A DNA stretch of 64,000 nucleotides from Komagataeibacter xylinus (GTDB lineage Bacteria > Pseudomonadota > Alphaproteobacteria > Acetobacterales > Acetobacteraceae): the NCBI RefSeq assembly GCF_009834365.1, contig NZ_CP041348.1:3137001-3201000 (forward strand). The letters run 5' to 3'. Positions 5,277 to 62,515 of this stretch are shown piece by piece (positions within the stretch are counted from its first letter, which is position 1; each line of letters begins with the position of its first letter). The translations under genes were made by a program, and so were the position numbers. Under the pieces are notes generated by a model. That model had not been told where the DNA came from, did not search any database, and saw nothing but the letters and a program-made list of their open reading frames with translations.

Positions 5277-5318
5277 CCGCCTGCTCAACATTCCGGCCAT
5301 GATCTGGTAAGATGTTCG

Positions 5319-5355: not shown

Positions 5356-5396
5356 CTTTTTCTGCAAAAGCCTGCGACATTCTTTCAGGCGGAATC

Positions 5397-24714: not shown

Positions 24715-24772
24715 CAATACCGCGCCGTAGCATCCTGCCCCCCTTTCGGCCACAGACCCGTTCCGTATGGCA

Positions 24773-24820
24773 TTTTTGCAAAAAACTGTGTCAGGCGCGG
24801 CTTTTTTGAAAAAAAACAGT
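24773..24820. terminator. Possible bidirectional terminator between convergent genes
   Basis: TTTTTGCAAAAAA is followed by ACTGT ... TTTTTTGAAAAAAAACAGT, nested AT-rich inverted repeats between the secreted protein (plus) and the YhaN-like gene (minus). It could also be a decayed copy of the two-hairpin repeat seen elsewhere in the window, but similarity is too weak to say. Confidence 0.3.
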
Positions 24821-24863
24821 ATCAGCACCTGTGCAAGAATCTGGTTTGCGCGCCCTGCGGCTT

Positions 24864-42387: not shown

Positions 42388-42454
42388 TGGCCCGCCATAC
42401 AGGCCAATGCGCAGGAGGTGCGCAACCTTTTCAAGAGACTATTAAAAAAAGAAC

Positions 42455-42531
42455 AGTTTCGGGGTGTCGCCTCTTTTTTAAAGGCGGCATTTTCCGAAGC
42501 TGTTTGCAAAACAGCTTCACCAAAAATCTTT
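42455..42531 (+). repeat. Two-hairpin interspersed element, copy A
   Basis: Outer arms AGTTTCGGGGTG and CACCAAAAATCTTT enclose hairpin 1 (CGCCTCTTTTTTAAAGGCG) and hairpin 2 (GAAGCTGTTT/AAACAGCTTC). It lies 67 bases after trhO in an AT-rich gap and would terminate trhO transcription. Hairpin 2 uses a different base pair from the other copies yet still pairs perfectly. Confidence 0.75.
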
Positions 42532-42753
42532 ATGATTTAAGGGTATTATTGATCCTGTCTTTTCAAATACCCTCTCCAGAATCAAAAACACACCACATCC
42601 TGAATTTTCTTTTTCTCCGAACAGGGTGGCAGGAAAGTTAATACAGACAGGAAAAATAAAGAAGAGATCACGTTTAAATATTTTGATGATAAATTTAAAA
42701 AAGTTTCCTAATCCTGCAATAAAGAAAATAATTCTTATCCATACTCTTCCGAT

Positions 42754-43248
42754 ATGGCGGAAAGTTTATGCCATCTGTTTAAAAATTATGGTGGAGACTC
42801 GTTTAACGGTGGTTTGTACAGAATTGTAAAACCGGAAGACATCAAGACATGGTCAGAACGTGTTTGCCTGGCATTCCCCGATTACGAAAAAACAATGATA
42901 TGCTTTGGATATGATTGGCTTGGCAGGGTATTTGCGACCAAAAATCCGGGAAAAGGCGATCATATATCATTGTTTGAATCAGAAACGGGCGATGTATTCA
43001 ACATTGAAGGCGATATTTTTTCATTCCACAATGACGAGCTGGTCAGATATGGCGATGCTGCCCTGGCAGAAAATTTCTTCGCAGAATGGCAGGCAGCAAC
43101 TGGTTTATCATTGAAATACAATGAATGCGTTTCCTATAAAATACCCCCATTCCTGAGCGGAAAGGATGAGATCGATAATTTGTACGTAGAAGATATTGAT
43201 GTTTCCTGGAATATTATCGGACAAATACTAAACAAGATACGTGGATAA
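42754..43248 (+). CDS. Tdi1-like (DUF1851-type) T6SS immunity protein, orphan
   Basis: A 164-residue protein, mostly soluble and acidic, from an AT-rich island (42540-43490). The C-terminal part, GDAALAENFFAEWQAATGLS then YNECVSYKIPPFLSGKDEID and DVSWNIIGQILNKIRG, resembles the Tdi1 C-terminal domain of type VI secretion DNase-immunity proteins. The N-terminal FKNYGGDSFNGGLYRI is also family-like. The frame is open 14 codons upstream of the ATG, so the start is uncertain. No toxin, Hcp, VgrG or Rhs gene is adjacent. It may be a stand-alone antidote against toxins of neighbours. Low GC suggests horizontal transfer. Confidence 0.7.
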   Translation: MAESLCHLFKNYGGDSFNGGLYRIVKPEDIKTWSERVCLAFPDYEKTMICFGYDWLGRVFATKNPGKGDHISLFESETGDVFNIEGDIFSFHNDELVRYGDAALAENFFAEWQAATGLSLKYNECVSYKIPPFLSGKDEIDNLYVEDIDVSWNIIGQILNKIRG

Positions 43249-43489
43249 AAAATACAAATTATTGGGCATCTGCACGTAAATTGCATATCCATGTCCCGCA
43301 TCGCATGGCGTTCACCGGGCTGGTGTTTTGCGGGGCAGCTGATCATCCTGTCATGAGAATGGTTGTGTGTGGTAAAGCTTCTTTCACGAAGGCCGTAAGG
43401 CACGCTGCATTAAAAAACAGACGGTGTGCGAAAATTTTTTTATGCAATAATTTGTTTTTAAACAGCTTTTTATCGGGAGCACAGACTGG

Positions 43490-45385
43490 TTGAACGCTGA
43501 GACCGAACCATCACGCCCTTCTTCCCCCCGGCCGGGAACGCACCAGCCATGGTCCGCGCGGCTGAAGCGGCGCTTTGGCGTGTATGCCCATGTACCGCGC
43601 ATGTTCCGCCAGATCTGGCAGTGCAGTCCGGCGCTGACGGTAGCCAGCATCTGCCTGCGGCTGGTGCAGGCCATCCAGCCGCCGCTGGCGCTGTATCTGG
43701 GCAAGCTTATTGTTGATGAGGTCATCCGCCTTGGCGGCCATGCCATGCCCGCCGGGTCACTGGCCCACTGGGCGCTGCATGGTCCGGCCACGCGGCTGGA
43801 ACTCTGGATCGCGCTGGAATTCGCGCTCATCATCCTGTCTGACCTGACATCACGCGCCATCTCGCTGGTCGATGGGCTGCTCAATGAGCGCTATATCAAT
43901 TCTGTCAGCCTTGCGCTGATGGAACATTCCGCAACGCTCGACCTGCAGCAGTTCGAATCAAGCGCGTTGCAAGACCTGCTAGAGCGCGCGCGCCGCCAGG
44001 CCTCGGGGCGTAACAACCTGCTGGTGCAACTGTTCAACATCGCCCAGACCACGGTCACGGCGCTGGTGCTGGCGGCAGGAGTCATGGCGTTTGCGCCATG
44101 GCTGGTGGTGGTACTGCTCATAGCCCTGCTGCCTGCTGCTGCGGGGGAAGCGCATTTCAACGCCGAGGGCTACCGCCTGATCCGCGCCAAGACCGCCGAG
44201 CGCCGCGAGATGGAATATCTGCGCCATGTCGGCTCCAGTGCGGAACATGCCAAGGAACTCAAGCTGTTTGGCCTTGGCGGCTTTCTGGTCGGGCGCTTCA
44301 GCACGGCTGCGGCCACCGTGCTGGAACAGAACCGCAGGCTGGCGCTGCGCCGGTTTGCATGGAGCGGGGCGTTCGCCGCCATCGGCTCGGTGGCGTATTA
44401 TGGCGTCTATATCGTGATTGTGTGGGACACGGTGCGCGGGCGCTTCTCGGTGGGTGACCTGACCTTTCTGTCAGGCTCGTTCCTGCGGCTGCACGGGCTG
44501 CTGTCGAGCCTGCTGCTCGGCGTGACGCAAACCGCCAGTCAGGCGCAGTATCTTGATGATTTCTTCACGTTTCTCGACCTGCGCCCGGCCATCCTCTCGC
44601 CCCCCGTGGCACGTCCCTTCCCTTCGCCCATCCGCCAGGGCATCCGCTTCGAGAATGTGGGCTTCCGCTATCCCGGCACGGACAGGTGGGCCCTGCGCGG
44701 CCTTGATCTGCACATTGGCGCGGGCGAGACTGTGGCGCTGGTTGGTGAGAACGGAGCAGGCAAGACCACGATCGTGAAGCTGCTCACCCGGCTTTATGAA
44801 CCCGATGAGGGGCAGATCACGGTTGATGGTGTTGATCTGCGCGACATGGACCTTGCCGACCTGCGTGCCCATATCGGCGTGATCTTTCAGGATTTCATCC
44901 GCTACAGCCTGACCGCATCGGAAAACATTGCCGTGGGCCGGATTGAAGCACTCGATGACACCACACGCATTACCGCCGCCGCCCATGAGGGGCTGGCTGA
45001 TGCCGTACTGGCCAAACTGCCCATGGGCCTTGACCAGCCTCTGGGCAAGCGGGTGGCCATGGGGCGCGAACTCTCGGGCGGCGAGTGGCAGAAAATCGCC
45101 ATATCGCGCGCCTATATGCGCGATGCCGACCTGCTGATCCTTGATGAACCGACCTCGGCACTTGATGCCCGGGCCGAAACGGATGTGTTCGAGCGCCTGC
45201 GCGCGCTGCGCCAGGGCAAGGCGGCGCTGGTCATTTCGCACCGTTTTTCCACCGTGCGTACGGCAGACCGCATCGTGGTGCTCGAGCATGGGCGCGTGCT
45301 TGAAGCAGGCACGCATGAACAGCTCCTGGCCCAGGGCGGGCGCTATGCGGAACTGTTTGAATTACAGGCGGCGGGGTACCAGTAG
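43490..45385 (+). CDS. ABC exporter, fused permease and ATPase (MsbA/LapB-like)
   Basis: A 631-residue half-transporter that should work as a homodimer. Residues 60-360 form the six-helix ABC transmembrane domain (SPALTVASICLRLVQAIQPP, ALVLAAGVMAFAPWLVVVLL, FAAIGSVAYYGVYIVIVW). The ATPase domain has Walker A GENGAGKTTIVKLLTRLYEP near residue 420, signature LSGGEWQKIAISRAYMRDAD near 527, Walker B LLILDEPTSALD, and H-loop LVISHRFSTVRTADR. TTG at 43490 with GGGAG 10 bases upstream is the likely start. The substrate (lipid, peptide or drug) is unknown. Convergent with an SDR gene. Confidence 0.9.
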   Translation: MNAETEPSRPSSPRPGTHQPWSARLKRRFGVYAHVPRMFRQIWQCSPALTVASICLRLVQAIQPPLALYLGKLIVDEVIRLGGHAMPAGSLAHWALHGPATRLELWIALEFALIILSDLTSRAISLVDGLLNERYINSVSLALMEHSATLDLQQFESSALQDLLERARRQASGRNNLLVQLFNIAQTTVTALVLAAGVMAFAPWLVVVLLIALLPAAAGEAHFNAEGYRLIRAKTAERREMEYLRHVGSSAEHAKELKLFGLGGFLVGRFSTAAATVLEQNRRLALRRFAWSGAFAAIGSVAYYGVYIVIVWDTVRGRFSVGDLTFLSGSFLRLHGLLSSLLLGVTQTASQAQYLDDFFTFLDLRPAILSPPVARPFPSPIRQGIRFENVGFRYPGTDRWALRGLDLHIGAGETVALVGENGAGKTTIVKLLTRLYEPDEGQITVDGVDLRDMDLADLRAHIGVIFQDFIRYSLTASENIAVGRIEALDDTTRITAAAHEGLADAVLAKLPMGLDQPLGKRVAMGRELSGGEWQKIAISRAYMRDADLLILDEPTSALDARAETDVFERLRALRQGKAALVISHRFSTVRTADRIVVLEHGRVLEAGTHEQLLAQGGRYAELFELQAAGYQ

Positions 45386-45403
45386 CGCCCCGCCGCCCGC
45401 GGC

Positions 45404-46177
45404 CTACTTGGTGGTGTAACCGCCATTGACCAGAATGGTCTGCCCGGTCATCCACCACCCTTCCGATACGATGAAACGGATATAGGGGGCTATATCCTCG
45501 ATCTCGGTCAGGCCGGTCCGGCTGAAGGGGGAAAGTGCTGCGGCCGATTTGTGGTAAGCCACGGCCTCGGGTGCTTCCTGCCCATAAAAGAAAGGCGTAT
45601 CCATCGGGCCCGGCCCGATCGCGTTGACCGAAATGCCACGCGCGCCATATTCCTTCGACGCCGCGCGGGTAAAGTGCTCCACCGCCGCCTTCGAGCCAGC
45701 ATAGGTAGAATAGAACGGCGTATAAGCTCCAAGCAGCGAGGTGACGAGCGTCAGCAGCTTGCCATTATCGTTCAGGTGGGTGCCCGCTTCCTTGATGAAG
45801 AAATACGCAACGCGCGTATTGACCGCGAACATGGCATCGAACTCGGCCTCGGTTGTCTCGGCAATCGGCTTCTTGAGCACCTGGCCTACGGTGTTGATGG
45901 CAATGTCTGGGCGGCCGATGGCGGCCACCGTATCGGCGAACAGTTTGGCCACCGCACCGTTTGCGGTCAGGTCGGCCTGAAAGGCCACGGCCTTTACACC
46001 TGCCGCCTTCAGCGCCGCCAGTGTTTTCTCGGCCTCGGGCCTGGCGGCCGCGCTGTGGTAGTGAATGGCAATGGCTTTTGCGCCATGGGCTGCAAGGTCA
46101 TGCGCCACGAGCGCACCAAGATTCTTGGCCCCGCCTGTAATGAGAACCGTCTTACCCTTGATGCTGTGATCTACCAT
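45404..46177 (-). CDS. Short-chain dehydrogenase/reductase
   Basis: A 257-residue classical SDR: TVLITGGAKNLGALVAHDLA (cofactor motif TGGxxxLG), INTVGQ replacing the usual NAG motif, SLLGAYTPFYSTYAGSKAAV with the catalytic Ser-Tyr-Lys, and a C-terminal TGQTILVNGGYTTK. A longer frame continues upstream, but MVDHSIKGKTVLITGG is the natural start. The substrate is unknown; the family is broad. A LysR gene is divergently encoded 127 bases away and a palindrome lies between them, so induction by the substrate through that LTTR is likely. Confidence 0.92.
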   Translation of the reverse strand: MVDHSIKGKTVLITGGAKNLGALVAHDLAAHGAKAIAIHYHSAAARPEAEKTLAALKAAGVKAVAFQADLTANGAVAKLFADTVAAIGRPDIAINTVGQVLKKPIAETTEAEFDAMFAVNTRVAYFFIKEAGTHLNDNGKLLTLVTSLLGAYTPFYSTYAGSKAAVEHFTRAASKEYGARGISVNAIGPGPMDTPFFYGQEAPEAVAYHKSAAALSPFSRTGLTEIEDIAPYIRFIVSEGWWMTGQTILVNGGYTTK

Positions 46178-46267
46178 ATCGAGCCTCCGTTCATGCGTGG
46201 CAAGCGCGGGTGGCGCTTTTGCTATCCGCACAGTATCAGTTAGGATCTGGCTATAAAGTTCCATTTT

Positions 46268-46284
46268 CTGACAACACCTGTCAG
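46268..46284. promoter_or_regulatory. Palindrome in the SDR-LysR intergenic region
   Basis: CTGACA and TGTCAG form perfect 6-base arms around ACACC, 21 bases before the LysR start. Size and position suit an LTTR autoregulatory site. Confidence 0.4.
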
Positions 46285-46304
46285 GAATAACGAACAAACA
46301 CCCA

Positions 46305-47243
46305 ATGTATGCCGGGGTTGCCGTGGATCGTATCGACCTGTTCCGTATCTTCACCCGCGTGGTGGAAACCACCAGCTTCACCCGCGCTGCCGATACGCTC
46401 AACATGCCGCGCTCCTCGGTCTCGGCCGCCATACAGGAACTCGAGAACCGGCTGGGCACAAGGCTGCTGGCCCGCACCACCCGCTCCGTCACCCCAACGC
46501 CCGATGGCACAGCGTTCTACGAGCACTGCGTGCGGCTGGTCACGGATGTGGAGGAAGCCGAAACCCTGTTTCAAAAAGATCGCACCGCGCCGCGTGGCCT
46601 GCTGCGGGTGAACCTGCCCGGGCGCATCGGGCGGCTGATCGTGGCCCCTGCCCTGCCTGCCTTCCTGCGCGACTACCCCGATATCGACATCGAGCTTGGT
46701 GTAAGCGACCGCACCGTGAACCTGATCGAGGATGGCATCGACTGCGTGCTGCGCGTCGGCCCGCTGGCGGACTCAGCATTGATTGCACGGCAGTTGGGTG
46801 AACTGCCGCTCATCAACGTGGCCAGCCCCACCTATCTGGCGCGCCGGGGCACGCCGCGCACGCCAGCCGACCTGCCGCAGCACGAGGCCGTGCGCTACGC
46901 CTCGCCCGCCACTGGCCGGGTGGAAGCATGGGAATGGATGGCGGACGGCACGGTGCATGGTTTGCAGATGCCCGGCCGGGTTACGGTCAACAGCGCCGAA
47001 GCCCTCGTGGCCTGCGCCCTGGCCGGTCTGGGGCTGATACAGGTGCCAGCCTATGATGTGCGCCACCATATTGCAGCGGGCGAACTCATTGACGTCATGC
47101 CCCGGTGGCGGCCCGAACCCATGCCCATGGCACTGCTCTACCCCCATCGCCGCCATCTGTCGCGCCGGGTGCAGGTGTTTGCCGACTGGCTTGCAACGCT
47201 GCTAGCGGAGGCAATGGATGAACACCCTGGCGAGGCGAATTGA
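46305..47243 (+). CDS. LysR-family transcriptional regulator
   Basis: A 312-residue LTTR. The helix-turn-helix is SFTRAADTLNMPRSSVSAAI near residue 24-43, followed by QELENRLGTRLLARTTRSVT. The effector domain (RGLLRVNLPGRIGRLIVAPA onward) includes DCVLRVGPLADSALIARQLG and LGLIQVPAYDVRHHIAAGEL. A GTG six codons into the frame is an alternative start (VDRIDLFRIF). It is divergent from the SDR gene, the classic LTTR/target layout. It is convergent with nhaA, and an interspersed two-hairpin element lies in the gap. Confidence 0.9.
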   Translation: MYAGVAVDRIDLFRIFTRVVETTSFTRAADTLNMPRSSVSAAIQELENRLGTRLLARTTRSVTPTPDGTAFYEHCVRLVTDVEEAETLFQKDRTAPRGLLRVNLPGRIGRLIVAPALPAFLRDYPDIDIELGVSDRTVNLIEDGIDCVLRVGPLADSALIARQLGELPLINVASPTYLARRGTPRTPADLPQHEAVRYASPATGRVEAWEWMADGTVHGLQMPGRVTVNSAEALVACALAGLGLIQVPAYDVRHHIAAGELIDVMPRWRPEPMPMALLYPHRRHLSRRVQVFADWLATLLAEAMDEHPGEAN

Positions 47244-47251
47244 TAAAGTAA

Positions 47252-47321
47252 AAGTTTCCGGGTGCTGCTTTTAAAAGCAGCGTTCTTTCGAGGCTTTTTG
47301 CAAAAAATCCACCAGAAACTT
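47252..47321 (+). repeat. Two-hairpin interspersed element, copy C
   Basis: Outer arms AAGTTTCCGGGTG and CACCAGAAACTT enclose hairpin 1 (perfect CTGCTTTT/AAAAGCAG) and hairpin 2 (GGCTTTTTGC with AAAAAATCC, including one G-U pair). It fills the gap between the convergent LysR gene and nhaA, ending next to the nhaA stop. Confidence 0.75.
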
Positions 47322-48446
47322 CTATGACCTGCCCCCAAAACGGAGCCATGCCCAGCCCGACAGCGCAGCAATAAGGGAGCCTGCGAATATGCCCAGCTTC
47401 GCAGCCCCCACCAGGGCAGCATCCGTAAAGGCGAGGCTGGCAATGAACAGGCTGATGGTAAAGCCAATGCCACATAAAAGCGAAAGCCCGAACAGCATGT
47501 GCCCCGAGGTCGCCTCCGGCAGGCTTGCCACCCCCAGTCTGGCCGCCAGCACGCTTGCGCCAAAAACGCCCACGGGTTTGCCTACTACCAGCCCCAGCAT
47601 GACCCCAAGCGGCACAGGGGCCAGCAGCATGCCCATATGCGCCCCAGCAAGCGAGACGCCCACATTGAGGAAACCAAACAGCGGCAGCACCAGCCATGTT
47701 ACAACCGCATTCAGGCCCGGTCGGGCCAGCGGGGCGGGCAGGCAGGCGCCAACCGCCACACCCGCCAGCGTTGGCTGCACGCCTGCGCGCACGCACAGCC
47801 CCCATAACAGCACGCCACCCAGCCCATAAACGCCAGCATTGACCACCCCGCAGCGACGGGCCGCAACCAGCCCCGCCAGCACCATGCAGGCCCCCCCCAG
47901 CGCAGGCCAGCAGGGTGCTGAACCGTAGAAGACCGCAATCACCCCGATGCCCAGCAGATCATCAAAAACCGCCAGCGCCATGAGCCACACCCGTGCTGCC
48001 GGGGCTACGCGCGCACCGAGCAGCAGGATGATGGGCAGGGTAAAGGCCGCATCGGTTGCAATCGGTATGGCCCATCCCCGCGCTGCCTCCGCCGCACCAC
48101 GGGTTATGAGGATGTAGGTAAGGGCCGGAGCCACCATGCCGCCCAGCGCGCCAATCAGCGGCAGGGCAACCCTGCGGGGTGAGGAAAGATGGCCATCGCT
48201 GATTTCCTGCCTGATTTCGAGGATGATGGTCAGGAAAAACAGCGCCATCAGCCCATCGGACACCCAGGCGGTCAAAGTGCGTGGCCCTTCTGCGCCCAGA
48301 ATGGAAACGCTGAACGGCCACTGCGCCACCGCCCCATAAGCGCCGGCCCATGGCGAATTGGCCAGTCCGAACCCCAACACGGATGCCAGCAGCAATGCGC
48401 AGGCGCCCCCTGCGGGGGAACGCCAGAAAGCAGTCGGAACACTCAT
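47322..48446 (-). CDS. nhaA: Na+/H+ antiporter NhaA
   Basis: Inner-membrane sodium/proton antiporter. From ATG 48446 the product is 374 residues, near the usual 380-390. It shows the NhaA signatures: LTAWVSDGLMALFFLTIILE, PIATDAAFTLPIILLLGARV with the first conserved Asp, and LMALAVFDDLLGIGVIAVFY with the paired essential Asp residues. LVVGKPVGVFGASVLAARLG follows near the C-terminus. The open frame extends 43 codons upstream, but that part lacks homology. A CPA1-type antiporter gene is upstream on the same strand, separated by a truncated copy of the interspersed element. Role in pH and Na+ homeostasis. Confidence 0.95.
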   Translation of the reverse strand: MSVPTAFWRSPAGGACALLLASVLGFGLANSPWAGAYGAVAQWPFSVSILGAEGPRTLTAWVSDGLMALFFLTIILEIRQEISDGHLSSPRRVALPLIGALGGMVAPALTYILITRGAAEAARGWAIPIATDAAFTLPIILLLGARVAPAARVWLMALAVFDDLLGIGVIAVFYGSAPCWPALGGACMVLAGLVAARRCGVVNAGVYGLGGVLLWGLCVRAGVQPTLAGVAVGACLPAPLARPGLNAVVTWLVLPLFGFLNVGVSLAGAHMGMLLAPVPLGVMLGLVVGKPVGVFGASVLAARLGVASLPEATSGHMLFGLSLLCGIGFTISLFIASLAFTDAALVGAAKLGIFAGSLIAALSGWAWLRFGGRS

Positions 48447-48552
48447 CCCGCTGTCATTGCACCCGAACGCAGCCGCATTGCAATAACCGGCCCCACCACA
48501 CAAACACGGGGCAAAAAGCGTAACCACAAAACAGACGATCCAGCATACAAAA

Positions 48553-48592
48553 ATTCTTGGTGAAGCTTTTTTCAAAAAGCTTCGAATAACGC
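48553..48592 (-). repeat. Two-hairpin interspersed element, copy D (truncated)
   Basis: In minus orientation it holds only the right half: connector AGCGTTATTC, hairpin 2 (GAAGCTTTTTGAAAAAAGCTTC) and outer arm ACCAAGAATTTT. Hairpin 1 and the left arm are absent. It lies between the CPA1 antiporter stop and nhaA. Confidence 0.6.
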
Positions 48593-48615
48593 TGGGGATG
48601 ATTGAAAAAACCTGC

Positions 48616-50214
48616 TCAGATCAAAGCCCCTTCCGCTGTCATCTGCTGCAGGTCGAGTTCATGTTCAAGCTGGTGCAGCACGGCGTCATGGATCTCGCCA
48701 CTGCGGTGCAGGCGCAGCAGTTCGGCGCGGCCTGCCTTTATGGTGGCCAGCAGGGCGCGGTAATGGGCATCCTGCCGCCCCTGCAGCGCCTCCTGCTCGT
48801 GGCTGAAACGCTCGGCCAGTTCCGCACGGTAGGCATATTGCTCAAGCAGGCGGTCATGCACCAGTTGTCCCTCCGCATCATAGGCCAGATGTTGCATGAC
48901 GCGCTCCTGCACGCGGGCAATCAGGGCGCGCGCCTGCGAGACCGACAGGTAATGCCGCTGCCCCGGCACCTGCCCGCGCGCGCCCTCCGTCATGCGGATC
49001 AGCCAGCCGATGGTAGTGCCCTGGCCCAGCACGGTTGCCAAAATGACCACGAAGGTCGCGATCTGCATGATGTCGCGCTCGGGCATGCCCTCGGGCAGCG
49101 CCAGCACGATGGCCAGACTGACCACGCCACGCATGCCGCACCACCCCATGACGACAACATAGGTCATGAACCCCCGTACGCCTGGCCGCCGTGATGGCGG
49201 CACGCAGGCGATGCGCAGCCCCTCGGTCATGGCCATCCACACAAAGCGCGATATCATGACCGCCAGCACAATGCCCATGACGGGGCCGAACACATCCTGC
49301 ACCACCCAGCCCGTGCCCCTGTGGCGCAGCACGATGGCATGCAGCGCCATGCCGATCAGCACGAAAACGAGGGATTCCAGCAAAAACACCAGCACCTCCC
49401 ACACCGCTGCCCAGCGCAGGCGCTCATCGGCGCTGAACACGTCATGCTGCCGCCACCCCAGCACCAGCCCCGCCACAACCGTGGTGATGACCCCCGACGC
49501 CCCGAGCCACTCGCCACCGATATAGGCCACCCAGGGCAGCAGCAGCGTCATGGTAATGCTCAGGATCCGGTCGCGCACCCGGCGCAGCAGCCTGATCCAC
49601 AGCCATCCCAGCCCGCCGCCCACCACCAGCCCGCCCATGGCCAGCCATGCAAAGGTGACAGTGGCATGAACAAGACTGAACGAGCCGGTCAGCACCGCAA
49701 CGGTGGCAAAGCGGTAGATGACAAGGCTCGCCGCGTCATCCAGCAGGCTTTCGCCTTCCAGCAGCGTCGTGATCCGCTCCGGCAGGACCACGTGCTTGAG
49801 CACGGCCTTGGCCGCCACCGCATCGGGTGGGGCGACAATGGCGCCCAGCACGAAACACCCCGCCCACGGCATGGAGGGAATAAGCCAGTGCGCGGCCAGC
49901 CCCACGGCAAATGTGGTGAACGCAACCCCGCCCACCGCAAGTTGCAGGATACCAAACAGGTGCAGGCGAAACGCATGCCAGACGGAAAAATACGCCCCCG
50001 CCAGCAAAAGCGGCGGCAGGAACACGATCAGCACCAGGTCAGGATCGATTTCAAGCACCGGCAGGCCGGGGGCAAGCGCAATGGCAATGCCGCCCAGCAC
50101 AAGGGCTGCAGCCGGTGGCAGGCGCATCTTGCGCGCGGCCAGTTCCAGCCCGACGATAAGCACGATCAGCATGAGGATATACTCAAAGCGCGCTACATTG
50201 GACATGAACATCAT
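48616..50214 (-). CDS. Na+/H+ antiporter, CPA1 family (NhaP/YjcE-like)
   Basis: About 532 residues with 12 predicted helices and a cytoplasmic tail. Signatures are LELAARKMRLPPAAALVLGG at the N-terminus, LVLIVFLPPLLLAGAYFSVW, GAIVAPPDAVAAKAVLKHVV with the PPDAVA motif, and LLEGESLLDDAASLVIYRFA with the ion-site Asp pair. GWCGMRGVVSLAIVLALPEG with the essential Arg follows later. The tail (about 420-532) is charged and rich in His and Gln, perhaps regulatory. Starts at 50214 or 50205 are both possible. It is followed by nhaA on the same strand, so two unrelated Na+/H+ antiporter families sit in tandem. Confidence 0.93.
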   Translation of the reverse strand: MMFMSNVARFEYILMLIVLIVGLELAARKMRLPPAAALVLGGIAIALAPGLPVLEIDPDLVLIVFLPPLLLAGAYFSVWHAFRLHLFGILQLAVGGVAFTTFAVGLAAHWLIPSMPWAGCFVLGAIVAPPDAVAAKAVLKHVVLPERITTLLEGESLLDDAASLVIYRFATVAVLTGSFSLVHATVTFAWLAMGGLVVGGGLGWLWIRLLRRVRDRILSITMTLLLPWVAYIGGEWLGASGVITTVVAGLVLGWRQHDVFSADERLRWAAVWEVLVFLLESLVFVLIGMALHAIVLRHRGTGWVVQDVFGPVMGIVLAVMISRFVWMAMTEGLRIACVPPSRRPGVRGFMTYVVVMGWCGMRGVVSLAIVLALPEGMPERDIMQIATFVVILATVLGQGTTIGWLIRMTEGARGQVPGQRHYLSVSQARALIARVQERVMQHLAYDAEGQLVHDRLLEQYAYRAELAERFSHEQEALQGRQDAHYRALLATIKAGRAELLRLHRSGEIHDAVLHQLEHELDLQQMTAEGALI

Positions 50215-50492
50215 ACCTGTCTCAGCCGGGCCTGTGCCTTTAACGCACAAGCCATGCCATCGATATCTGACAAAATATTCATGGCCATGAGTGGAAATAA
50301 TTCATGTCTTTTTGGTGTCGCTGCGCACCAGTCAATCAATCATGACTACGTGCATGAAATAAAATACTGACACCGCCATGAAACGGCACCGCACGGTGTC
50401 CGTTCATGCCATGCAGGCGGCTCTTCCGCCCCGCGCGCCTGCACCATCGCCTTTACATGCGCCCACCCACTCCAGACAAAGGAGAACAGCCG

Positions 50493-50675
50493 ATGGATGC
50501 ACCCTGCACCCGCCCGGCACAAGGCCCGGACAAGCCCAAGGCCACGGTCAGATCCCCATCCCTCATACTGGCGTCCCCACGGCCCGATACACCACCGGCG
50601 CAGGCCCGGCCCTGCCTGTCGCACCGTCTCGCCAACCCGGCGCAACAGCCAAGGAAAAGCCTTTTCCGCAAATGA
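50493..50675 (+). CDS. Possible small basic protein upstream of the glucan synthase
   Basis: A 60-codon frame with a textbook ribosome site (AAGGAGAACAGCCG then ATG). The product MDAPCTRPAQGPDKPKATVR and onwards is Pro/Arg/Lys-rich, has no hydrophobic segment and matches no family I know. It ends 52 bases before the glucan synthase start. The strong ribosome site is the main evidence; it could be a leader peptide or a genuine small protein. The remainder of 50215-50727 shows nothing else supported. Confidence 0.4.
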   Translation: MDAPCTRPAQGPDKPKATVRSPSLILASPRPDTPPAQARPCLSHRLANPAQQPRKSLFRK

Positions 50676-50727
50676 AAACACAGGGGCGCATGGCGGTTTA
50701 GCGTCATGCGCCCGGCTGGAGCATGAC

Positions 50728-53700: not shown

Positions 53701-56700
53701 ATTGCCATGTGGGCCAGCCGCACGCCGGTCATTGCCGCGCGCTCGCGCCCCTCGCGCACCGATATCCGCGCCCTGCGCATGACGGCGCGGCGGACATGGC
53801 GCTTTTTCGAGACCTATGTCACCCCCGCCGACAACATGCTGCCGCCTGACAATTTTCAGGAAGATCCCACCCCCCTGCTGGCGCGTCGCACCTCGCCCGC
53901 CAATATCGGCCTCTACCTGCTGTGCACCATCAGCGCGCGTGATTTTGGCTGGGCCGGGCTGGCTGATACCGTAGCCCGGCTGGAGGCGACCTTCGCCACC
54001 CTGGCGCGCATGCCACGCTACCGGGGGCATTTCCACAACTGGTATGCAACCGATGACCTGCGCCCGCTCGAGCCTGCCTATGTCTCGAGCGTAGATAGCG
54101 GCAACATGGCCGGTCACCTCATTGCGCTGGCCAGCGCGTGCCAGCGCTGGGCGGAACGCGGGCCGGAAACCGATCCGTGGCGCGAAGGCATTACCGATGC
54201 GCTCAACATCGCCATGGCCGACCTCACCTTCAGCAAGGGCGTGCGCCGCAATCATAGCACGCCCGAGCGGCAGCTGCTGCGCCTGCTCACGGGGCTGAAA
54301 AACGCGGTCCTGTCCGACACTGCCGCCCGGTCGGCAGCCGAACTCGCCCGCCTGCGCCGCCAGGCGGCGGCGGCGGTCGATCATGCCGCCGTGCTGTACA
54401 GCAACCTGCCCGACACGGCGCCTGACATCGCAACAGACCTGCTGTTCTGGGTCGCTGCCCCCCTGCGCGCGCTGGAGAGCCACGAGCGCGACCTTGACCC
54501 GGACCTGTACGCAGGCCTTGGGCCGCGCCTTATGGCCATCGCGCAGGCGGCACGGCACATGGCGCAGGAGATGGATTTCAAATTCCTGTGCGACCCCGCC
54601 CGCAAGCTGCTCTCGATCGGCTACCTTGTAACGGAAGATACGCAGGACACGAACTGCTACGACCTTCTGGCCTCCGAAGCACGGCTGGCGGTGTTTTTCG
54701 CCATCGCCAAGGGCGACATGCCCGCCCAGGACTGGTTCCGTCTTGGCCGCTCCATCACTCCGGTGGGCAACGGGGCGGCGCTGGTGTCGTGGTCGGGCTC
54801 GATGTTTGAATATCTCATGCCCTCGCTGGTCATGCGCGCGCCCATGGGCAGCCTGCTCGAACAGACCAATACGCTGATCGTGCAGCGCCAGATCGCCTAC
54901 GGGCAGGCACGCGGCCTGCCGTGGGGCATATCGGAATCGGCCTATAACGTGCGCGACCTGGAATATACCTACCAGTATTCCAACTTCGGCGTGCCGGGAC
55001 TGGGGCTCAAGCGCGGGCTGGGGCTGGACCGGGTCGTGGCCCCCTACGCCACGGCGCTTGCCGCCATGGTCGACCCGCAAAAGGCAGTGGCCAACCTGTA
55101 CGTGCTGGAAAAAACCGGCGCGCTGGGCCGGTACGGGTTTTATGAATCACTCGATTACACGCCCGGCCGCGTGCCTGACCGCAGCCCTGTCGCGATCATA
55201 CGGGCCTATATGGCGCACCATCAGGGCATGTCGATCCTTGCGGTGGCCGATACGCTCATGGGGGGTATCATGCGCACGCGCTTTCATGATGATCCGCTCA
55301 TGGCCTCGGCCGAACTGCTGTTGCAGGAACGCGCGCCGCGCCGGGGTGCCGTGGCCCGGCCCCTCCCGCTTGAAGATGACAGCAAGGTGCCCGCCCCGGC
55401 CGTCACAATGCCTGCGGGCCGTTATCTTGACCGGGCCGACACGGTGCAGCCGGTAACCCATCTGCTTTCCAACGGGCGGTACACGGTCATGCTCACGGCA
55501 GCGGGGTCGGGCTACAGCCGCTGGCTCGGCCACGCCATCACGCGCTGGCGCGAGGACATGACATGCGATGAATACGGCCAGTACATCTACCTGCGCGACC
55601 GCAGCACGGGCCGGGTATGGTCCGCCACAATGCAGCCCTGCGCCGCGCGACCCGATGAATACGGCGTGGCCTTTCATGAAGACCGCGCCGAGTTCGGCCG
55701 CCGTGACGGCAACCTGACCACGACACTGGAAATATTCGTCTCCGCCGAGGATGACGCCGAGGCCCGCCAGCTTTCGCTCTACAACGCAGGCAGCGAGGCA
55801 ATGGAGCTTGAGGTCACCAGCTACAGCGAACTGGCCCTGCTTGGGCAGGATGCCGATCTGGCGCACCCGGCCTTCACCAAGCTGTTCGTGCAGACCGAAT
55901 ACCTGGCCGAATCCCGCGCGCTGATTGCCACCCGCCGCAGGCGCGCGCCCGATGAGGCCGGGATATGGGTGGCGCAGATGGCCGTGTGTGACAGCGCAGT
56001 CGAGGTGGAAACCGACCGCGCCCACTTTATCGGCCGCCGCCATGATGTGCATGACCCCGCGGCCCTAAATGCGCACGCACGCCTGTCGGGTGCCATCGGC
56101 ACGGTGCTCGACCCGGCCTTTGCCATCCGCACCACGCTCTCCATCCGCCCTGGCGCCATGGCGCGCCTCACGTTGTGGACCATGGCAGCCCCCACCCGCG
56201 CCGCCCTGCTGGACATGATCGACACCCATCAGGACACCACTGCCTTCGAGCGCGTGCGCACGCTGGCCTGGACGCAGGCGCAGGTGCAGTTGCGCCATCT
56301 CGACATCAGCCCCACCACAGCGGACCTGTTCCAGCGCCTTGCGGGCCACATCCTATACGCAGGTCCGGCCCTGCGTGCCGATGCCGCGACCATTGCCCGA
56401 GGTGCCGGGCCGCAGCCGCTGCTGTGGGCGCAGGGCATTTCAGGCGACCTGCCGCTGCTCGTGCTGCGCATAAGGGCGGCGGATGACACGGCTCTGGTGC
56501 GCCTGTTGCTTGTGGCGCAGGAATATCTGCGCCTCAAGCAGGTGGCGGTGGATCTTGTCATCATCAATGAACATCCGTCCTCCTACATGCAGGACCTGCA
56601 GGTGGCACTCGACCAGATGGTGCATGCCACGCCGCGCACGCCCAGTACGGCGGGTTCGGTGCGCGTGCTGCGTGCCGATCTCGTAACACCCGTGGTGCTG

Positions 56701-58515: not shown

Positions 58516-59281
58516 TGACGGCACGCCACTGGGGTCGCATACCAGCGCGGAATGCCAGATCGATGCCATATCCCAGTCATGGTCGGTGCTGTCCGGCGTG
58601 GGCGCACCCGACCGGGTGGCCCATGCCATGCGCTCGGTGCGCGCACGGCTGGTGCGCGCCGATGAAGGGCTGGTGCTGGTACTCGCCCCGCCCTTTGACA
58701 CCATCGGCCCTGATCCGGGCTATATTCGTGGCTACCCGCCCGGCATACGTGAAAATGGCGGCCAGTACACCCATGCCGCCCTGTGGACCGTCATGGCCTT
58801 CGCAGCACTGGGCGACGGGGCGCAGGCGCATGCCCTGCTGCACCTCATCAACCCCATTAACCACAGCCTGACCGCCGAAGCCGCCGGACGTTACCGGCTG
58901 GAACCCTATGTTGTCGCAGCCGACATCTATTCCCGCCCGCCGCATGTGGGGCGCGGCGGCTGGTCGTGGTACACCGGATCGGCCGGGTGGATGCAGCGCG
59001 TGGGCGTGGAAACCCTGCTTGGCCTGCGCGTGCTGGGCACGACGCTGGTTGTTGACCCGTGCATTCCGCCCGGGTGGCCCGAATTCACGGCGCAGTTGCG
59101 CTGGCGCACCGCCACCTACGCCATAACGGTCAGCAACCCCGAGCATGTAAGCACGGGCGTGCGCCATGTCGTGCTCGATGGCGCGGCCCTGCCCGCCACC
59201 GACCCGATCGGGATGGTGGATGATGGCGCGATCCATATCGTGACCGTTACACTCGGGCCGCCACCGCAGGGAGTTGCATGA
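58334..59281 (+). pseudogene. C-terminal GH94 part of the glucan synthase in the +1 frame
   Basis: The true continuation of the upstream glucan synthase. From about 58414 this frame reads GENARAQAWEAHRQALATAL, then GDWYLRAYFDDGTPLGSHTS, SQSWSVLSG, and GIRENGGQYTHAALWTVMAF. It ends with the GH94 barrel segment GGWSWYTGSAGWMQRVGVET. All are standard cyclic-glucan-synthase C-terminal motifs. Homology begins only at the shift point, so the annotated start is nominal. Removing one G from the GGGG run at 58410-58413 would join the two frames seamlessly. Natural inactivation, phase variation or a sequencing error are all possible. Confidence 0.85.
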
Positions 59282-59347
59282 CGGATGGATGTGGTTTCAG
59301 GCGCAGCGGCATCACTTATTAATTTACCACCACCCGTGCAAAAGGCC

Positions 59348-59372
59348 CGAACCATCCCCCGCGTGTGCCGTT
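59348..59372 (+). promoter_or_regulatory. Possible EcfG-type (general stress) promoter
   Basis: CGAAC, 16 bases, then CGTT. This matches the alphaproteobacterial EcfG consensus GGAAC-N16/17-CGTT except for the first base. It lies 64 bases before the small hydrophilic protein gene. A weak call, but position and spacing fit. Confidence 0.35.
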
Positions 59373-59435
59373 GACTGACAGACAGCAGAAAAGACGCGGT
59401 TTTTTACTGCTGCCTTTCCATAAAGGACAGGGATC

Positions 59436-59693
59436 ATGTCTTACCTTACGCACCAGCGCGCGCGTGGCGGCGATGCCCCTTCAACCCCCGTGGATGAAGG
59501 CCATGCCGCCCCAAAGGCTGAAGGGCACGGCAAGCCCCGCAAGGGCGAGGACGAGCCGGAATCCAGCCTCGACAATGACGAACGGGTCGAAGCCACCAGC
59601 CACAAAGGCACGCAGCAGCACTGCGCCGAAGGCTGCGACGAACACGCCCACCCCGAAAACCAGCACGGCGCAACGCCTGCCAGAAAACCCTGA
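59436..59693 (+). CDS. Small hydrophilic protein, 85 residues
   Basis: Very polar product (MSYLTHQRARGGDAPSTPVD and onwards), rich in His, Glu, Lys, Gly and Pro, with no hydrophobic stretch; likely disordered. The ATG follows AAGGACAGGG closely, a good ribosome site. No family is recognised. An overlapping minus-strand frame (59481-59699) would encode a two-helix membrane peptide; it has no ribosome site and is disfavoured, though it cannot be excluded. A possible EcfG-type promoter lies upstream, which would suit a stress-protection role, but this is inference. Confidence 0.5.
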   Translation: MSYLTHQRARGGDAPSTPVDEGHAAPKAEGHGKPRKGEDEPESSLDNDERVEATSHKGTQQHCAEGCDEHAHPENQHGATPARKP

Positions 59694-59841
59694 CGGCACG
59701 ACGGGCAGTCCGTTCAGTATTCATGCCCGCATTCACACCGCGCAGAAGTATTCACACGGCACGCAGGCGCATGATGCAACCTTTGCCAAGCGTGATGTCT
59801 TTAATGCGTGGTGCACCCCAAAAATGAAAGAAGACACAACC

Positions 59842-60216
59842 ATGAAAAAGATTCTGCATTCCACCTTGCTTGCAGCCGTCGTGGCAAGTGTACCCGCCCT
59901 TGCCGTAGCGCAGTCCGACATGGGCGGCGCGGCAGCCCCCACGGCCAATTCGGCGGCCTCGCAGGTGGGTCGCAACCCGCCCTCGGCCACCTCCACAAAC
60001 GGCCAGCGCGTCGAACCGTCGGACAAGCTGTGGAACAATCCGCGCACCGTGGACGAACAGCCCGGCACGCAGCCGCCGAACAATAATGATTCCTCTGGCA
60101 GCGCCACCCCGAATGGCCACAGCCACAGCTACAGCCATACCCATCCCGGATCGGAAGGGCGCAGCAGCCGCGGCGGGAACAAGACACCCTCCCCCGCTGA
60201 TAGCAGCGAACAGTAA
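59842..60216 (+). CDS. Secreted hypothetical protein, low-complexity C-terminus
   Basis: A 124-residue product beginning MKKILHSTLLAAVVASVPAL with a clear Sec signal peptide cleaved near AVAQS (about residue 24). The mature part is Asn/Ser/Pro/Gly-rich, with NPRTVDEQPGTQPPNNNDSS and a His/Ser stretch (GHSHSYSHTHPGSEG) that could bind metal. No fold is recognised. An upstream in-frame extension to 59365 is not coding. It sits in a run of small polar proteins between the glucan synthase and a DJ-1 protein. Confidence 0.65.
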   Translation: MKKILHSTLLAAVVASVPALAVAQSDMGGAAAPTANSAASQVGRNPPSATSTNGQRVEPSDKLWNNPRTVDEQPGTQPPNNNDSSGSATPNGHSHSYSHTHPGSEGRSSRGGNKTPSPADSSEQ

Positions 60217-60281
60217 GCCATGCAGCCACACGGAGCCTGCGCCCGATACTGTGCGGCTCCGTGCCTTATGTGAGAACAGGC

Positions 60282-60428
60282 ATGTACCTTCCCTGTGGCC
60301 AGCCGCCCATGCCCCCGCCGGGCCCACCACCGCCATTGCGTGACCCGCCGCCGGCAGGACCAGACGGTCCCGATCCGTTTGATGACCCGCCGCCCCCACC
60401 ACCACCACTCCAGAACAAGGACACATGA
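60282..60428 (+). CDS. Proline-rich microprotein, 48 residues
   Basis: ATG 60282 opens MYLPCGQPPMPPPGPPPPLR and ends PPPPPPPLQNKDT; about half the residues are proline. GAGAACAGG precedes the ATG. The stop overlaps the next start by four bases (ATGA), which suggests translational coupling and supports reality. The opposite strand shows a long Gly-rich shadow frame. Function unknown; poly-proline segments usually mediate protein contacts. Confidence 0.4.
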   Translation: MYLPCGQPPMPPPGPPPPLRDPPPAGPDGPDPFDDPPPPPPPLQNKDT

Positions 60429-60595
60429 TCATGTCCAGCAGCCCTGACCCCAAGGAAGAAAAACAGCCCACCCCCGCCGAGGAACATGAAGACGAAGGCC
60501 GCGACGAAGCGCTTGACGAGAGCTTTCCCGCCAGCGACCCGCCTTCGCAGGGGCGCACCACCGGCCCACGCTCACAGCCGCACAATACGAAGTGA
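60425..60595 (+). CDS. Small acidic protein with DESFPASDPPS motif
   Basis: A 56-residue polar protein (MIMSSSPDPKEEKQPTPAEE onward) containing EALDESFPASDPPSQG near residues 29-45. I recognise LDESFPASDPPS as a recurring motif of tiny uncharacterised proteins in Proteobacteria, often near stress genes. The start overlaps the preceding stop (ATGA); an alternative ATG is two codons downstream. It is followed by interspersed element copy B, which would act as terminator. Confidence 0.6.
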   Translation: MIMSSSPDPKEEKQPTPAEEHEDEGRDEALDESFPASDPPSQGRTTGPRSQPHNTK

Positions 60596-60671
60596 GCTGT
60601 CATCCCTATTCGGCATGATGGGGCCCGTTGAAAGGGTGCCTGAAAATAAATCATTCATGGGAAACGATAAG

Positions 60672-60744
60672 AGTTTTTGGGTGCCGCCTTTTTAAAAAAG
60701 GCGGCGTTCTGTGAAGTTTTTTGAAAAAAGCTTCACCAAAAACT
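60672..60744 (+). repeat. Two-hairpin interspersed element, copy B
   Basis: Outer arms AGTTTTTGGGTG and CACCAAAAACT enclose hairpin 1 (GCCGCCTTTTT/AAAAAGGCGGC) and hairpin 2 (GTGAAGTTTTTT/AAAAAAGCTTCAC, one bulge). It is preceded by GATAAG and followed by a T-run. It lies between the small acidic protein and the DJ-1 gene. Confidence 0.8.
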
Positions 60745-60882
60745 TTTTTACGACAGGCAGGCCATCTGCCTGCCAAACACCTTTGAAGCGGGCGCAGCCC
60801 CCCCCTTTTCCGGGGGCGGTTCATGCCCGTGCAGGCACCAGCCTGCAGCAATACCTTATTTTACAGCAGACGGAGAACAGCC

Positions 60883-61515
60883 ATGGCCATCCATGCATCC
60901 GGCGCAATGTCAGACTCATCCATACATAGTTCCAGCCCGCAGGCCCCCACGGCTCACGGCACGCTGGCTGGCCGCACCATAGCCTTTCTGGCCACCAATG
61001 GCGTGGAGGATGTGGAACTGAGCGAACCGGCGGCAGCCCTGCGCGCGGCTGGCGCCCATACGGTGCTTGTCGCCCCCGAAGCCGGTGAAATCCAGGCCAT
61101 GAAAGCCGATGTAAACCCCACCCGGCGGCTACATGTGGACATGCCGGTCGACAAGGCCAGCGCCGATGATTTTGACGGTCTTGTCCTGCCCGGCGGCACG
61201 ACCAGCCCCGACCACCTGCGCATGGACGAGCAGGCCGTAGGCTTCGTGCGGGCATTCGTGCAGGCGGGCAAGCCCATTGCCGCCATCTGCCATGGTGCAT
61301 GGACGCTGATCAACGCCGAGGGCGTGCGCGGGCACACACTCACCTCATGGCCCTCGCTGCGCGTGGACCTGACCAATGCAGGCGCGCACTGGGTGGACCG
61401 CGAGGTGGTGAGCGATGGCACGCTGGTCACATCGCGCAACCCGCATGACCTCAAGGCGTTCTGCCCGGCCATCATCGCCCTGTTTGCCAAAGCCCCCCAG
61501 CGCGCAGCGCAGTAA
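60883..61515 (+). CDS. DJ-1/PfpI-family protein (YhbO/Gsp18-like)
   Basis: A 210-residue protein of the DJ-1/PfpI superfamily. An extra polar N-terminus of about 35 residues precedes the core LAGRTIAFLATNGVEDVELS. Then come DFDGLVLPGGTTSPDHLRMD and the nucleophile elbow PIAAICHGAWTLINAEGVRG (Cys near residue 145). The tail has DREVVSDGTLVTSRNPHDLK, typical of type 1 glutamine amidotransferase-like stress proteins. YhbO-type members protect against oxidative, acid and glyoxal stress. CGGAGAA lies just upstream of the ATG. Its neighbours suggest a stress locus. Confidence 0.93.
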   Translation: MAIHASGAMSDSSIHSSSPQAPTAHGTLAGRTIAFLATNGVEDVELSEPAAALRAAGAHTVLVAPEAGEIQAMKADVNPTRRLHVDMPVDKASADDFDGLVLPGGTTSPDHLRMDEQAVGFVRAFVQAGKPIAAICHGAWTLINAEGVRGHTLTSWPSLRVDLTNAGAHWVDREVVSDGTLVTSRNPHDLKAFCPAIIALFAKAPQRAAQ

Positions 61516-61530
61516 AGGGAGGGCACCGAG

Positions 61531-62301
61531 ATGATGAAGAACCCGACTTTCCTGCGCTATTACGCCACCACCATGCTGTGCGCGGGCGCTGCCACGCTGG
61601 GGGCCGGTTTTGTGGCCTGGTGGCGCGGGCGCAGGGTTGAAGCCGATGCCCCCGTGGCCACGGCGCACGCATCCCCGCCCGCAGCCCACCCCGAACCGCA
61701 TGAGCGCGAACCCGCCGAAACCGACACGACACGGCAGGTCGCGCGCAAGATGATCCAGTATTTTGTCATTCCGCTGTGGCTGACAGCTGGCCTGACCGAC
61801 TGGTGGTGCCACCGCCGCACGGATATCGAGCACACGACCGGGCTGAAGGAAACCGGCATCCATCTGCTCATGCTCGGCGAAGCCGCCTTCCCGGTGCTGG
61901 CGGGCCTGTTCCTGGAAATCGACGCCCCGGTGCTGTCGCTGATGATCGCGTCGTTTTTCGTGCATGAAGCCACGGCGATGTGGGATGTAAGCTATGCCGT
62001 AACCCGGCGCGAGGTACAGCCCGTCGAGCAGCATGTGCACAGCTTTCTTGAAATGGTACCACTGCTGGCCGTTGCACTGGTGGCCGTGCTGCACTGGCCG
62101 CAGCTTCAGGCGCTGCTGGGGCGCAAGGTGATCCGCTCCCACCCCATCCGCCTCAAGCGCGTACCGCTGGGCCTGCGCTACGCTCTGGGCGCGCTCGGGG
62201 CCATGGCCGTGTTCGAGGTGCTGCCCTATTGCGAGGAAGCCCTGCGCGACTGGAAAGCCAATCCTGGCCGCCTCACGCCGCCCGCAGGGCAGCCAGCGTA
62301 A
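61531..62301 (+). CDS. Conserved His-rich integral membrane protein
   Basis: A 256-residue protein with about five hydrophobic segments: residues 10-30, 75-92 (MIQYFVIPLWLTAGLTDWW), 107-140, 175-190 and 215-232. Conserved-looking polar residues lie at membrane edges: DWWCHRRTDIEH, GLKETGIHLLM, FFVHEATAMWDVSYA, and QPVEQHVHSFLEMVP. The His/Glu/Asp spacing resembles a membrane metal site of the fatty-acid-hydroxylase or heme/diiron kind, but no known family is certain. GGGAGGGCACCGAG precedes the ATG. It begins 15 bases after the DJ-1 gene, so it is likely co-transcribed with it. Confidence 0.75.
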   Translation: MMKNPTFLRYYATTMLCAGAATLGAGFVAWWRGRRVEADAPVATAHASPPAAHPEPHEREPAETDTTRQVARKMIQYFVIPLWLTAGLTDWWCHRRTDIEHTTGLKETGIHLLMLGEAAFPVLAGLFLEIDAPVLSLMIASFFVHEATAMWDVSYAVTRREVQPVEQHVHSFLEMVPLLAVALVAVLHWPQLQALLGRKVIRSHPIRLKRVPLGLRYALGALGAMAVFEVLPYCEEALRDWKANPGRLTPPAGQPA

Positions 62302-62330
62302 AATGCTACAACAATCCTGTAACCGGGAGA

Positions 62331-62390
62331 AGTTTTTTATAACGCTTCATCAAACGCCGCCTTTTTGAAAAAAGGCGGCACCAAAAAACT
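62331..62390 (-). repeat. Two-hairpin interspersed element, copy E (hairpin 2 decayed)
   Basis: In minus orientation: GATAAGAGTTTTTT, then intact hairpin 1 (GCCGCCTTTTTTCAAAAAGGCGGC), then a degenerate remnant of hairpin 2 (TGAAGCGTTAT) and the outer arm AAAAAACT. It follows the His-rich membrane protein gene. Confidence 0.7.
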
Positions 62391-62515
62391 CTTATCTTCA
62401 ATTTGATCGGGGCAACGTCATGCCCTTACGCGCCTGCATACCAGACAGATTTGGAGCAGAATAATATCGGCGCCGGGGCTTCGCAGGGCGGGGTATTGTG
62501 TGGCATAGGCATGCA

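Follow-up and report, generated by a model that had tools for sequence, protein, structure and literature searches.

A stretch of 64,000 nucleotides from the chromosome of Komagataeibacter xylinus (NZ_CP041348.1, positions 3,137,001 to 3,201,000; here called the window) contains five intergenic sites, copies A to E, at which a pair of complementary outer arms encloses two hairpins. Each of these sites is a worn copy of a miniature inverted-repeat transposable element (MITE), which is present by the hundred in cellulose- and vinegar-making bacteria. The explanation that best accounts for the results as a whole, and which we consider probable, is that they are worn copies of a non-autonomous MITE of the IS5/IS1031 type, whose hairpins have been kept as a module of the 3′ untranslated region (3′-UTR). 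All five sites were pointed out in an earlier note on the window; they are present where it placed them, and they belong to one large family.

The full-length unit and its target

The family was described by a covariance model, R1, which was built from 33 aligned copies and is divided into the outer arms (P1), hairpin 1 (H1) and hairpin 2 (H2). The training set included all five window copies, and the independent evidence for the family is therefore the remaining genome. The genome of K. xylinus (G000) has 3.98 Mb in four contigs, and the window is C1:3137001-3201000.

In the flanks of 54 K. xylinus copies, conservation stops sharply at the edge of the core. About one-tenth of 212 distinct full-length cores, taken from K. 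xylinus, its relatives and named records, carry a motif of the TTTTCAAACAG type (25) or of the CTGTTTGAAAA type (20) at the expected distance, some of these matches being due to chance because two mismatches were allowed. The motifs beside the cores reveal a longer unit. It is about 162 bp in length (130-165), is non-coding, and has the 15-bp terminal inverted repeats GAGACTGTTTGAAAA (two mismatches allowed; 32 distinct units). The exact sequence TTTTCAAACAGTCTC is found in 18 of the 19 genomes of the genus, often as inverted pairs 147 apart, and a reversed-pattern control gave no matches. Among 29 loci with the exact end, the core is present in 24 and a second end in 15. Most copies have no ends and keep the core of about 85 nt.

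An identical 3-bp duplication flanks 26 of the 32 full units, compared to 6.9 expected from re-paired flanks, while a 4-bp duplication flanks none of them. The duplications are TNA in 24 cases, the other two being CAA and ATA. For one insertion (G007:C29) the empty site was found: 12 other genomes, among them K. xylinus with its plasmid contig C2, have a match of 256-260 nt to the joined flanks, at 98-100% identity. With the remaining 11 joined flanks, matches across the junction reached no more than about 93% identity, or the match was split, in some cases with remnants. The empty site in K. xylinus reads ATGAAGAAGTAA and closes an open reading frame with TAA. The duplicated TAA is thus the stop codon, and the duplication keeps the stop at this target. 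Six of the 30 full units examined lie exactly on a predicted stop, of which two (L413 and L416) have the same left flank and probably represent one event. Two K. xylinus copies that have an end, L375 and L376, are preceded by TAA and TGA. Terminal repeats, target duplications and empty sites together support the suggestion of the earlier note that the elements may be MITE-like; it had named duplications and empty sites as things to look for, and they were found in 26 of 32 units and for one insertion in 12 genomes, respectively.

A separate observation is a palindromic stretch, about 60 nt long, at L207:11726-11790, which has both ends resembling the terminal repeats and no two-hairpin core. 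This is perhaps another type of MITE.

Number and distribution of copies

A BLAST search of the K. xylinus genome with copy B (60665-60755) gave 42 rows, with the best 40 of 281 candidates scored; the rows include copy B itself and two palindrome partners. R1 has at least 150 matches in this genome, and among those listed all are on the 3.53-Mb chromosome, so that the case of few or no copies elsewhere, which the earlier note had raised, does not apply. In a chromosome sample of 744 kb (34 stretches of 20 kb and the window), 49 places score 30 bits or more, and no place does so in 120 kb of sampled plasmid (six stretches). Extrapolation from the sampling gives a chromosomal total of about 230 copies.

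All 19 genomes of the genus, K. xylinus included, have R1 matches, numbering from 39 to at least 150 each. In a survey of the family, made with stricter filters and with the best 22 candidates per genome scored, matches were obtained in 30 of 200 sampled genomes and 18 of 102 genera, those above 100 bits being confined to the genus of K. xylinus and one other genus (g73). The 16-mer at the right end is present, among the matches listed, in Komagataeibacter, Novacetimonas, Gluconacetobacter entanii, Gluconobacter and Acetobacter garciniae, together with chance matches in unrelated taxa. The unit also occurs in five of 72,556 public plasmid records, all of them from Komagataeibacter or Novacetimonas, and had no match in a phage collection.

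Three further observations concern the distribution. Two copies about 12.7 kb apart (G000:C1:1933428 and C1:1946161) have identical flanks in the stretch shown, and probably belong to a duplicated segment rather than to two insertions. The 150 chromosomal matches listed look denser at about 0.4-1.75 Mb than in the remainder of the chromosome. Finally, single hairpins ending in CACCAAAAACTTTTAT, apparently after gene ends, were seen at L047:967 and L093:6327 (NGEE_A_bin7, an unclassified metagenome-assembled genome), and are possible relatives.

The candidate mover

In its copy number, size, palindromes and extragenic 3′ position the element resembles the repetitive extragenic palindromic (REP) sequences and their mosaic elements (BIME), which are moved by the REP-associated tyrosine transposase (RAYT) and are described in the available text of PMC2817692 as palindromic, extragenic, and present in more than 100 copies per genome. 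That the family is of this type is very improbable. No protein with the RAYT domain Y1_Tnp (PF01797) was found in any of the 19 genomes of the genus, whereas the control was positive in five of 14 known genomes, and the present element has terminal repeats and 3-bp TNA duplications instead. Membership of the REP/RAYT group was rejected on this basis.

The likely mover is a transposase of the IS5/IS1031 type, which we regard as a candidate. The K. xylinus genome has 29 matches to DUF4096 (IS5 family), 24 of them above the cut-off. A resident insertion sequence (IS) of the IS1031-like group is 930 bp long with ends GAGCCTGATCCGAAAGTT, and is flanked by duplications TTA, TTA and CTA at three of the five loci that have the same transposase score, these three being the loci at which the ends were resolved. 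A second resident IS has ends of the GAACCTGTTTGGAAAATC type. According to the available text of PMC12016507, elements of the IS1031 group prefer TNA and make a 3-bp repeat, and the GAG-type ends and 3-bp TNA duplication of this group are common to the present element, which differs from it in being non-coding and in having ends unlike those of the resident ISs with resolved ends. A resident transposase of the group would move the unit in trans via its ends, and the copies without ends would be the older ones.

Exact ends at wider spacing were considered as IS candidates; those fetched either formed pairs of MITE length or stayed unpaired. We also note a short sub-threshold DUF4096 fragment (L371, G000:C1:1852305-1852394) about 150 nt from a full-length K. 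xylinus copy of the MITE.

Position relative to genes

Genes were called with a hexamer caller made for this analysis, and some of its calls are wrong. Among sampled chromosomal gaps of 20 nt or more, a copy is present in 24 of 66 convergent gaps, 21 of 216 tandem gaps and 1 of 63 divergent gaps (Fisher p 1.6e-7, convergent against divergent). A set of 164 unique copies from K. xylinus and other loci, which is partly a sample of similar copies, contained 136 usable ones, of which 77 are convergent, 45 tandem, 6 divergent and 8 at an edge. Tandem copies lie at a median of 17.5 nt past the upstream stop and 82.5 nt ahead of the next start (n = 22), and have the same orientation as the upstream gene in 14 cases and the opposite one in 8. 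The counts of convergent and tandem against divergent gaps support the location at gene ends for the family as a whole.

The 30 full units examined are distributed as 12 convergent, 11 tandem and none divergent, with two called inside a gene and five unassigned. As divergent gaps are avoided even by full units, any function comes after target choice, after purging, or after both. The choice of TNA and AT-rich targets, together with removal from promoters and genes, would give the pattern observed.

Conservation and pairing of the hairpins

Fifteen sampled K. xylinus sites were compared with the orthologous intervals of six relatives, which are about 90-95% identical at the compared genes. Of the 90 intervals 76 were usable, and 65 of these have a recognisable core; for the five window sites the figure is 12 of 24. 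Lost cores often leave the core ends behind. Pooled over the 15 sites, identity to the K. xylinus copy is 0.880 for H1 and also for H2, 0.762 for P1 and 0.739 for unpaired positions, compared to 0.763 for flanking non-coding DNA and 0.892 for coding DNA, and the whole core is slightly higher than the flank (0.805 against 0.763). In the test by site, which uses 14 sites (13 for H2 alone), the hairpins are above the flank at 13 of 14 sites (p 8.5e-4). Taken singly, H1 is above it at 10 of 14 (p 0.013) and H2 at 10 of 13 (p 0.011), while P1 is above it at 6 of 14 only (p 0.63). The two hairpins are constrained approximately like coding DNA, and the outer arms drift as flanking DNA does.

Covariation was assessed at 12 of 20 sites, using 66 rows. 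Flipped orthologues were excluded, and rows were dropped where fewer than 20 of 30 pairs are formed, where E is above 1e-9, or at sites with fewer than three rows; this filter favours paired rows, and the shuffles were drawn from the same rows. Double changes that keep the pairing number 12 in H1, as against 4.5 ± 1.7 expected, a value reached in 0 of 1000 within-site shuffles. Broken pairs number 29 in H1 (37.6 in shuffles) and 49 in H2 (50.5). In P1 there are 125 broken pairs against 135.6 expected, which is as low in 7 of 1000 shuffles and speaks slightly for a junction.

The minimum-energy RNA fold of copy B is the full three-way junction (-35.3 kcal/mol, z -6.35). Copy A prefers another long hairpin over the junction, and the best fold of copy C is not a junction (z -1.67). 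The earlier expectation that intact copies fold as a three-way junction thus holds for copy B and fails for A and C, these being the copies folded.

Possible role of the hairpins and alternative explanations

Under the explanation that we prefer, a worn MITE with retained hairpins, the hairpins, once settled, would persist as a stem-loop module of the 3′-UTR, terminating the transcript or protecting it, from either side. Because such a module would act from both sides, its orientation should hardly matter. A role as terminator or at the mRNA 3′ end is plausible.

Several results weigh against this explanation. Regarding the origin of the element, six of the 32 full units have no 3-bp duplication, the ends of the resident IS1031-like IS and of the MITE are alike at only 10 of 15 positions (by eye), and no IS having the MITE's ends was found among the exact ends in the 19 genomes of the genus or at the IS5-family loci of K. 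xylinus. Regarding the hairpins, the double changes in H2 show no excess (4 against 2.9 ± 1.4 expected, 304 of 1000 shuffles), and in P1, for which the evidence is mixed, the 10 observed against 7.6 ± 2.0 expected are matched or exceeded in 163 of 1000. The bias to gene ends is already present in full-length copies, and hence need not reflect function. Tests of other terminators are neutral, both for convergent gaps (4 of 24 with a copy against 6 of 42 without one) and for tandem gaps (0 of 21 against 12 of 195, p 0.61), and strong ordinary terminators adjoin some copies. Lastly, one-sided changes in the hairpins, read on the transcript strand, give 36 G.U against 25 A.C (p 0.2), which does not favour RNA over a DNA cruciform, the two forms suggested in the earlier note.

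The idea of conserved structure over changed sequence, put forward in the earlier note, is therefore borne out for H1 by the excess of double changes, though not for H2, where the sequence itself is kept and no such excess is seen, and P1 is mixed. As P1 is mixed and drifts like the flank, a selected three-way junction has little support.

A similar pattern could be produced without selection if one arm of a hairpin were overwritten from the other. This leads to the alternative that the copies are neutral debris, in other words a MITE and nothing more, in which arm-to-arm template switching in hairpins with small loops mimics conservation and gene ends merely tolerate insertions. Only H1 shows a significant excess of double changes, and the outer arms, which are far apart, do not, as local correction within a hairpin predicts; full-length, presumably recent, insertions are already biased to gene ends. 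However, H2 has a similarly short loop and an identity of 0.880, yet has no excess of double changes, and hairpin identity near the coding level, above the flank at 13 of 14 sites, exceeds that of neutral flanks. We are doubtful about this alternative, while regarding it as a genuine possibility.

The earlier note proposed mobile bidirectional terminators, which would halt RNA polymerase arriving from either of two convergent genes. The proposal shares ground with the explanation preferred here, and we rate it as a strong possibility that stops short of an even chance. The occurrence of a copy in more than one-third of the sampled convergent gaps (24 of 66) fits it, as does the finding that a simple rule for intrinsic terminators (a GC-rich hairpin followed directly by a T run) is satisfied by 11 of 49 copies. 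In three relatives (G017, G007 and G014) the place of copy E, that is, the orthologue of window 62301-62400, is taken by an unrelated hairpin followed by T, as judged by eye. Against this, gaps with a copy are not poorer in other terminators, a strong ordinary terminator stands next to some copies as noted above, and the U run comes after the outer stem, whose conservation does not exceed that of the flank.

Reversed cores

Two pairs of orthologous Gluconobacter copies, L074 (G. oxydans) with L076 (G. potus) and L045 (G. albidus) with L077 (G. oxydans), have the inner part reverse-complemented, while the coding flanks, stop codons and outer arms are in register. The inner parts of L074 and L076 match at 52 of 56 positions in their own register, compared to 35 of 59 columns in the opposite one. 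For L045 and L077 the figures are 51 of 72 and 41 of 74 columns; the hairpin variants are common to both, and L077 has 16 extra nt. The comparison rests on these four copies. In terms of the preferred explanation, the reversed cores would have arisen by inversion in place.

It is alternatively conceivable, although we think it unlikely, that the reversed orthologues result from re-insertion, or from replacement by another copy through the shared arms. In favour of this, units L437 and L438 are nested inside older copies, and sites 9 and 10 in Komagataeibacter have a second copy next to the first or inside it. In addition, copies at the two different Gluconobacter sites match, in alignments free of a long gap, at 46-50 of 57 columns, which is close to the 52 of 56 between L074 and L076, so that overall identity is a weak guide to whether inversion or replacement took place. 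Inversion is favoured by the H1 variants: both members of one pair have TTCCGCC/GGCGGAG, and both members of the second have TGTCGCC/GTGAC. Moreover, both pairs keep arms and coding flanks in register with no extra sequence. Seven Komagataeibacter orthologues were also flagged as reversed (sites 2, 5, 9 and 10), and the second copies at sites 9 and 10 make re-insertion possible there.

The reversed cores suggest palindrome-driven events in these copies, which is also a point in favour of neutral debris. A more far-reaching version of the preferred explanation is that the TNA target suits stop codons and so seeds gene ends, that the host adopts the hairpins as a reversible, orientation-blind 3′-end module at about one-third of convergent pairs, and that inversion in place is regular. 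We offer this tentatively, as a possibility that is more doubtful than otherwise.

Second copies beside or within the first were seen as L328 (site 10 of G007) and at site 9 of G006. They are not present in the other relatives compared, and are probably recent insertions.

The copies in the window

The orientations given in the earlier note (three plus, two minus) are correct, A, B and C being on the plus strand and D and E on the minus strand, and so are the stem variants that it listed for copies A, B and C. Its statement that all five are at gene ends agrees with the gene calls made here for A, C, D and E, and is uncertain for B, where the upstream gene is ambiguous.

Copy B has the most intact core in the window (60666..60749, plus strand, R1 100.5 bits). 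In the three-way-junction fold its left outer arm is 60669..60680, hairpin 1 is 60683..60705, hairpin 2 is 60712..60735 and the right outer arm is 60736..60747, all on the plus strand. Upstream are two overlapping open reading frames, 59365-60216 (+) and 59752-60654 (-), neither of which has a Pfam domain.

The core of copy A, comprising outer arms, hairpin 1 and hairpin 2, is at 42449..42533 on the plus strand (69.3 bits). It is followed at 42534..42575, on the same strand, by what is left of the full-length unit's right-hand extension (nhmmer, 42532-42575 matched to this part of a full-length copy, E 0.015). The earlier note saw the core only, and this match shows that the actual unit is longer.

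Copy C (47247..47325, plus strand, 66.4 bits) is 3 nt past the stop of a LysR-type gene (46305-47243) and touches the stop of a convergent Na+/H+ antiporter gene (47322-48575), both neighbours being assigned by Pfam. The outer arm of copy C (GTTTCCGG/CCAGAAAC) was said to have changed on both sides. This is true of one compensated change, T-A to C-G, whereas the adjacent change from T to C is uncompensated.

Copy D is truncated, as previously described: its left half is missing, leaving hairpin 2 and the right arm at 48547..48592 on the minus strand. R1 gives 32.9 bits over 48547-48637, with homology only at about 48547-48592, and there is an inverted-repeat match of 85% to copy B. Copy E (62326..62396, minus strand, 61.1 bits) has an intact left half and a decayed second hairpin, again in line with the original description, and lies 24 nt past the stop of the gene 61531-62301.

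Elsewhere in the window, the sequence CTGTTTAAAAACAAATTATTGCATAAAAAAAT at 43420-43466 (-) is similar to the full unit's left extension, with no recognised core, and is a possible solitary end remnant. Weak R1 matches at 24752-24833 (-; 21.4 bits) and 5306-5385 (+; 21.0 bits) may be more decayed copies. Covariance models from Rfam 15 gave no match to window 40000-64000 at E up to 1.

Relation to known elements and significance

The kind of element to which the family belongs is known. The available text of PMC3733652 describes the bacterial MITEs RUP, NEMIS, ERIC, Bcr1, Nezha and EFAR as non-coding elements of 70-300 bp with terminal repeats of 15-30 bp, and known bacterial MITEs as structured, transcribed and adjacent to genes. 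The present element is like them in size class, terminal repeats and lack of coding capacity. They come from other hosts, and the likeness is one of description and not of sequence. A stop-codon TNA target and reversed orthologous cores, both of which the present element has, are not mentioned for RUP-type MITEs in the text available to us; the same source reports that CGTC repeats are missing in Acetobacteraceae.

MITEAba12 of Acinetobacter is similarly a short bacterial MITE, recognised by its ends and duplications in a family-wide survey. As described in the accessible part of PMC6382973, it has 111-114 bp, 9-bp duplications and 90 copies over about 31 genomes, with weak predicted structure and no predicted terminators. 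The present element is unlike it in having 3-bp TNA duplications, at least 100 copies in many genomes, strong hairpins and a bias to gene ends. As judged from titles and the beginnings of abstracts in the open-access literature, we found no description of this family in acetic acid bacteria, and PMC4686929, in the text available, mentions MITEs only in general.

Among known processes, the nearest to the reversed cores are the small inversions of chloroplasts, which affect 5-50 bp between repeats of 11-24 bp (excerpt of PMC12928735, citing Kim and Lee 2005). In the present case an inner segment of 56 nt is reversed between arms of about 12-16 bp, likewise in an intergenic stem-loop; the difference is that it is bacterial and lies within the remnant of a dispersed mobile element. 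By this analogy, the reversed cores resemble a bacterial version of the inversions known from chloroplasts.

The features that single out this family for study are its stop-codon target, at which the stop is kept, a hairpin core more durable than the ends, and the reversed cores. A transposon can settle harmlessly at gene ends, the target being possibly the stop codon itself. The full unit, nested unit, worn core and reversed core form a natural series, in which the takeover of mobile DNA as 3′-UTR structure can be tested. Judging by its copy number, the element may be among the most numerous dispersed repeats of the bacteria that make bacterial cellulose and vinegar.

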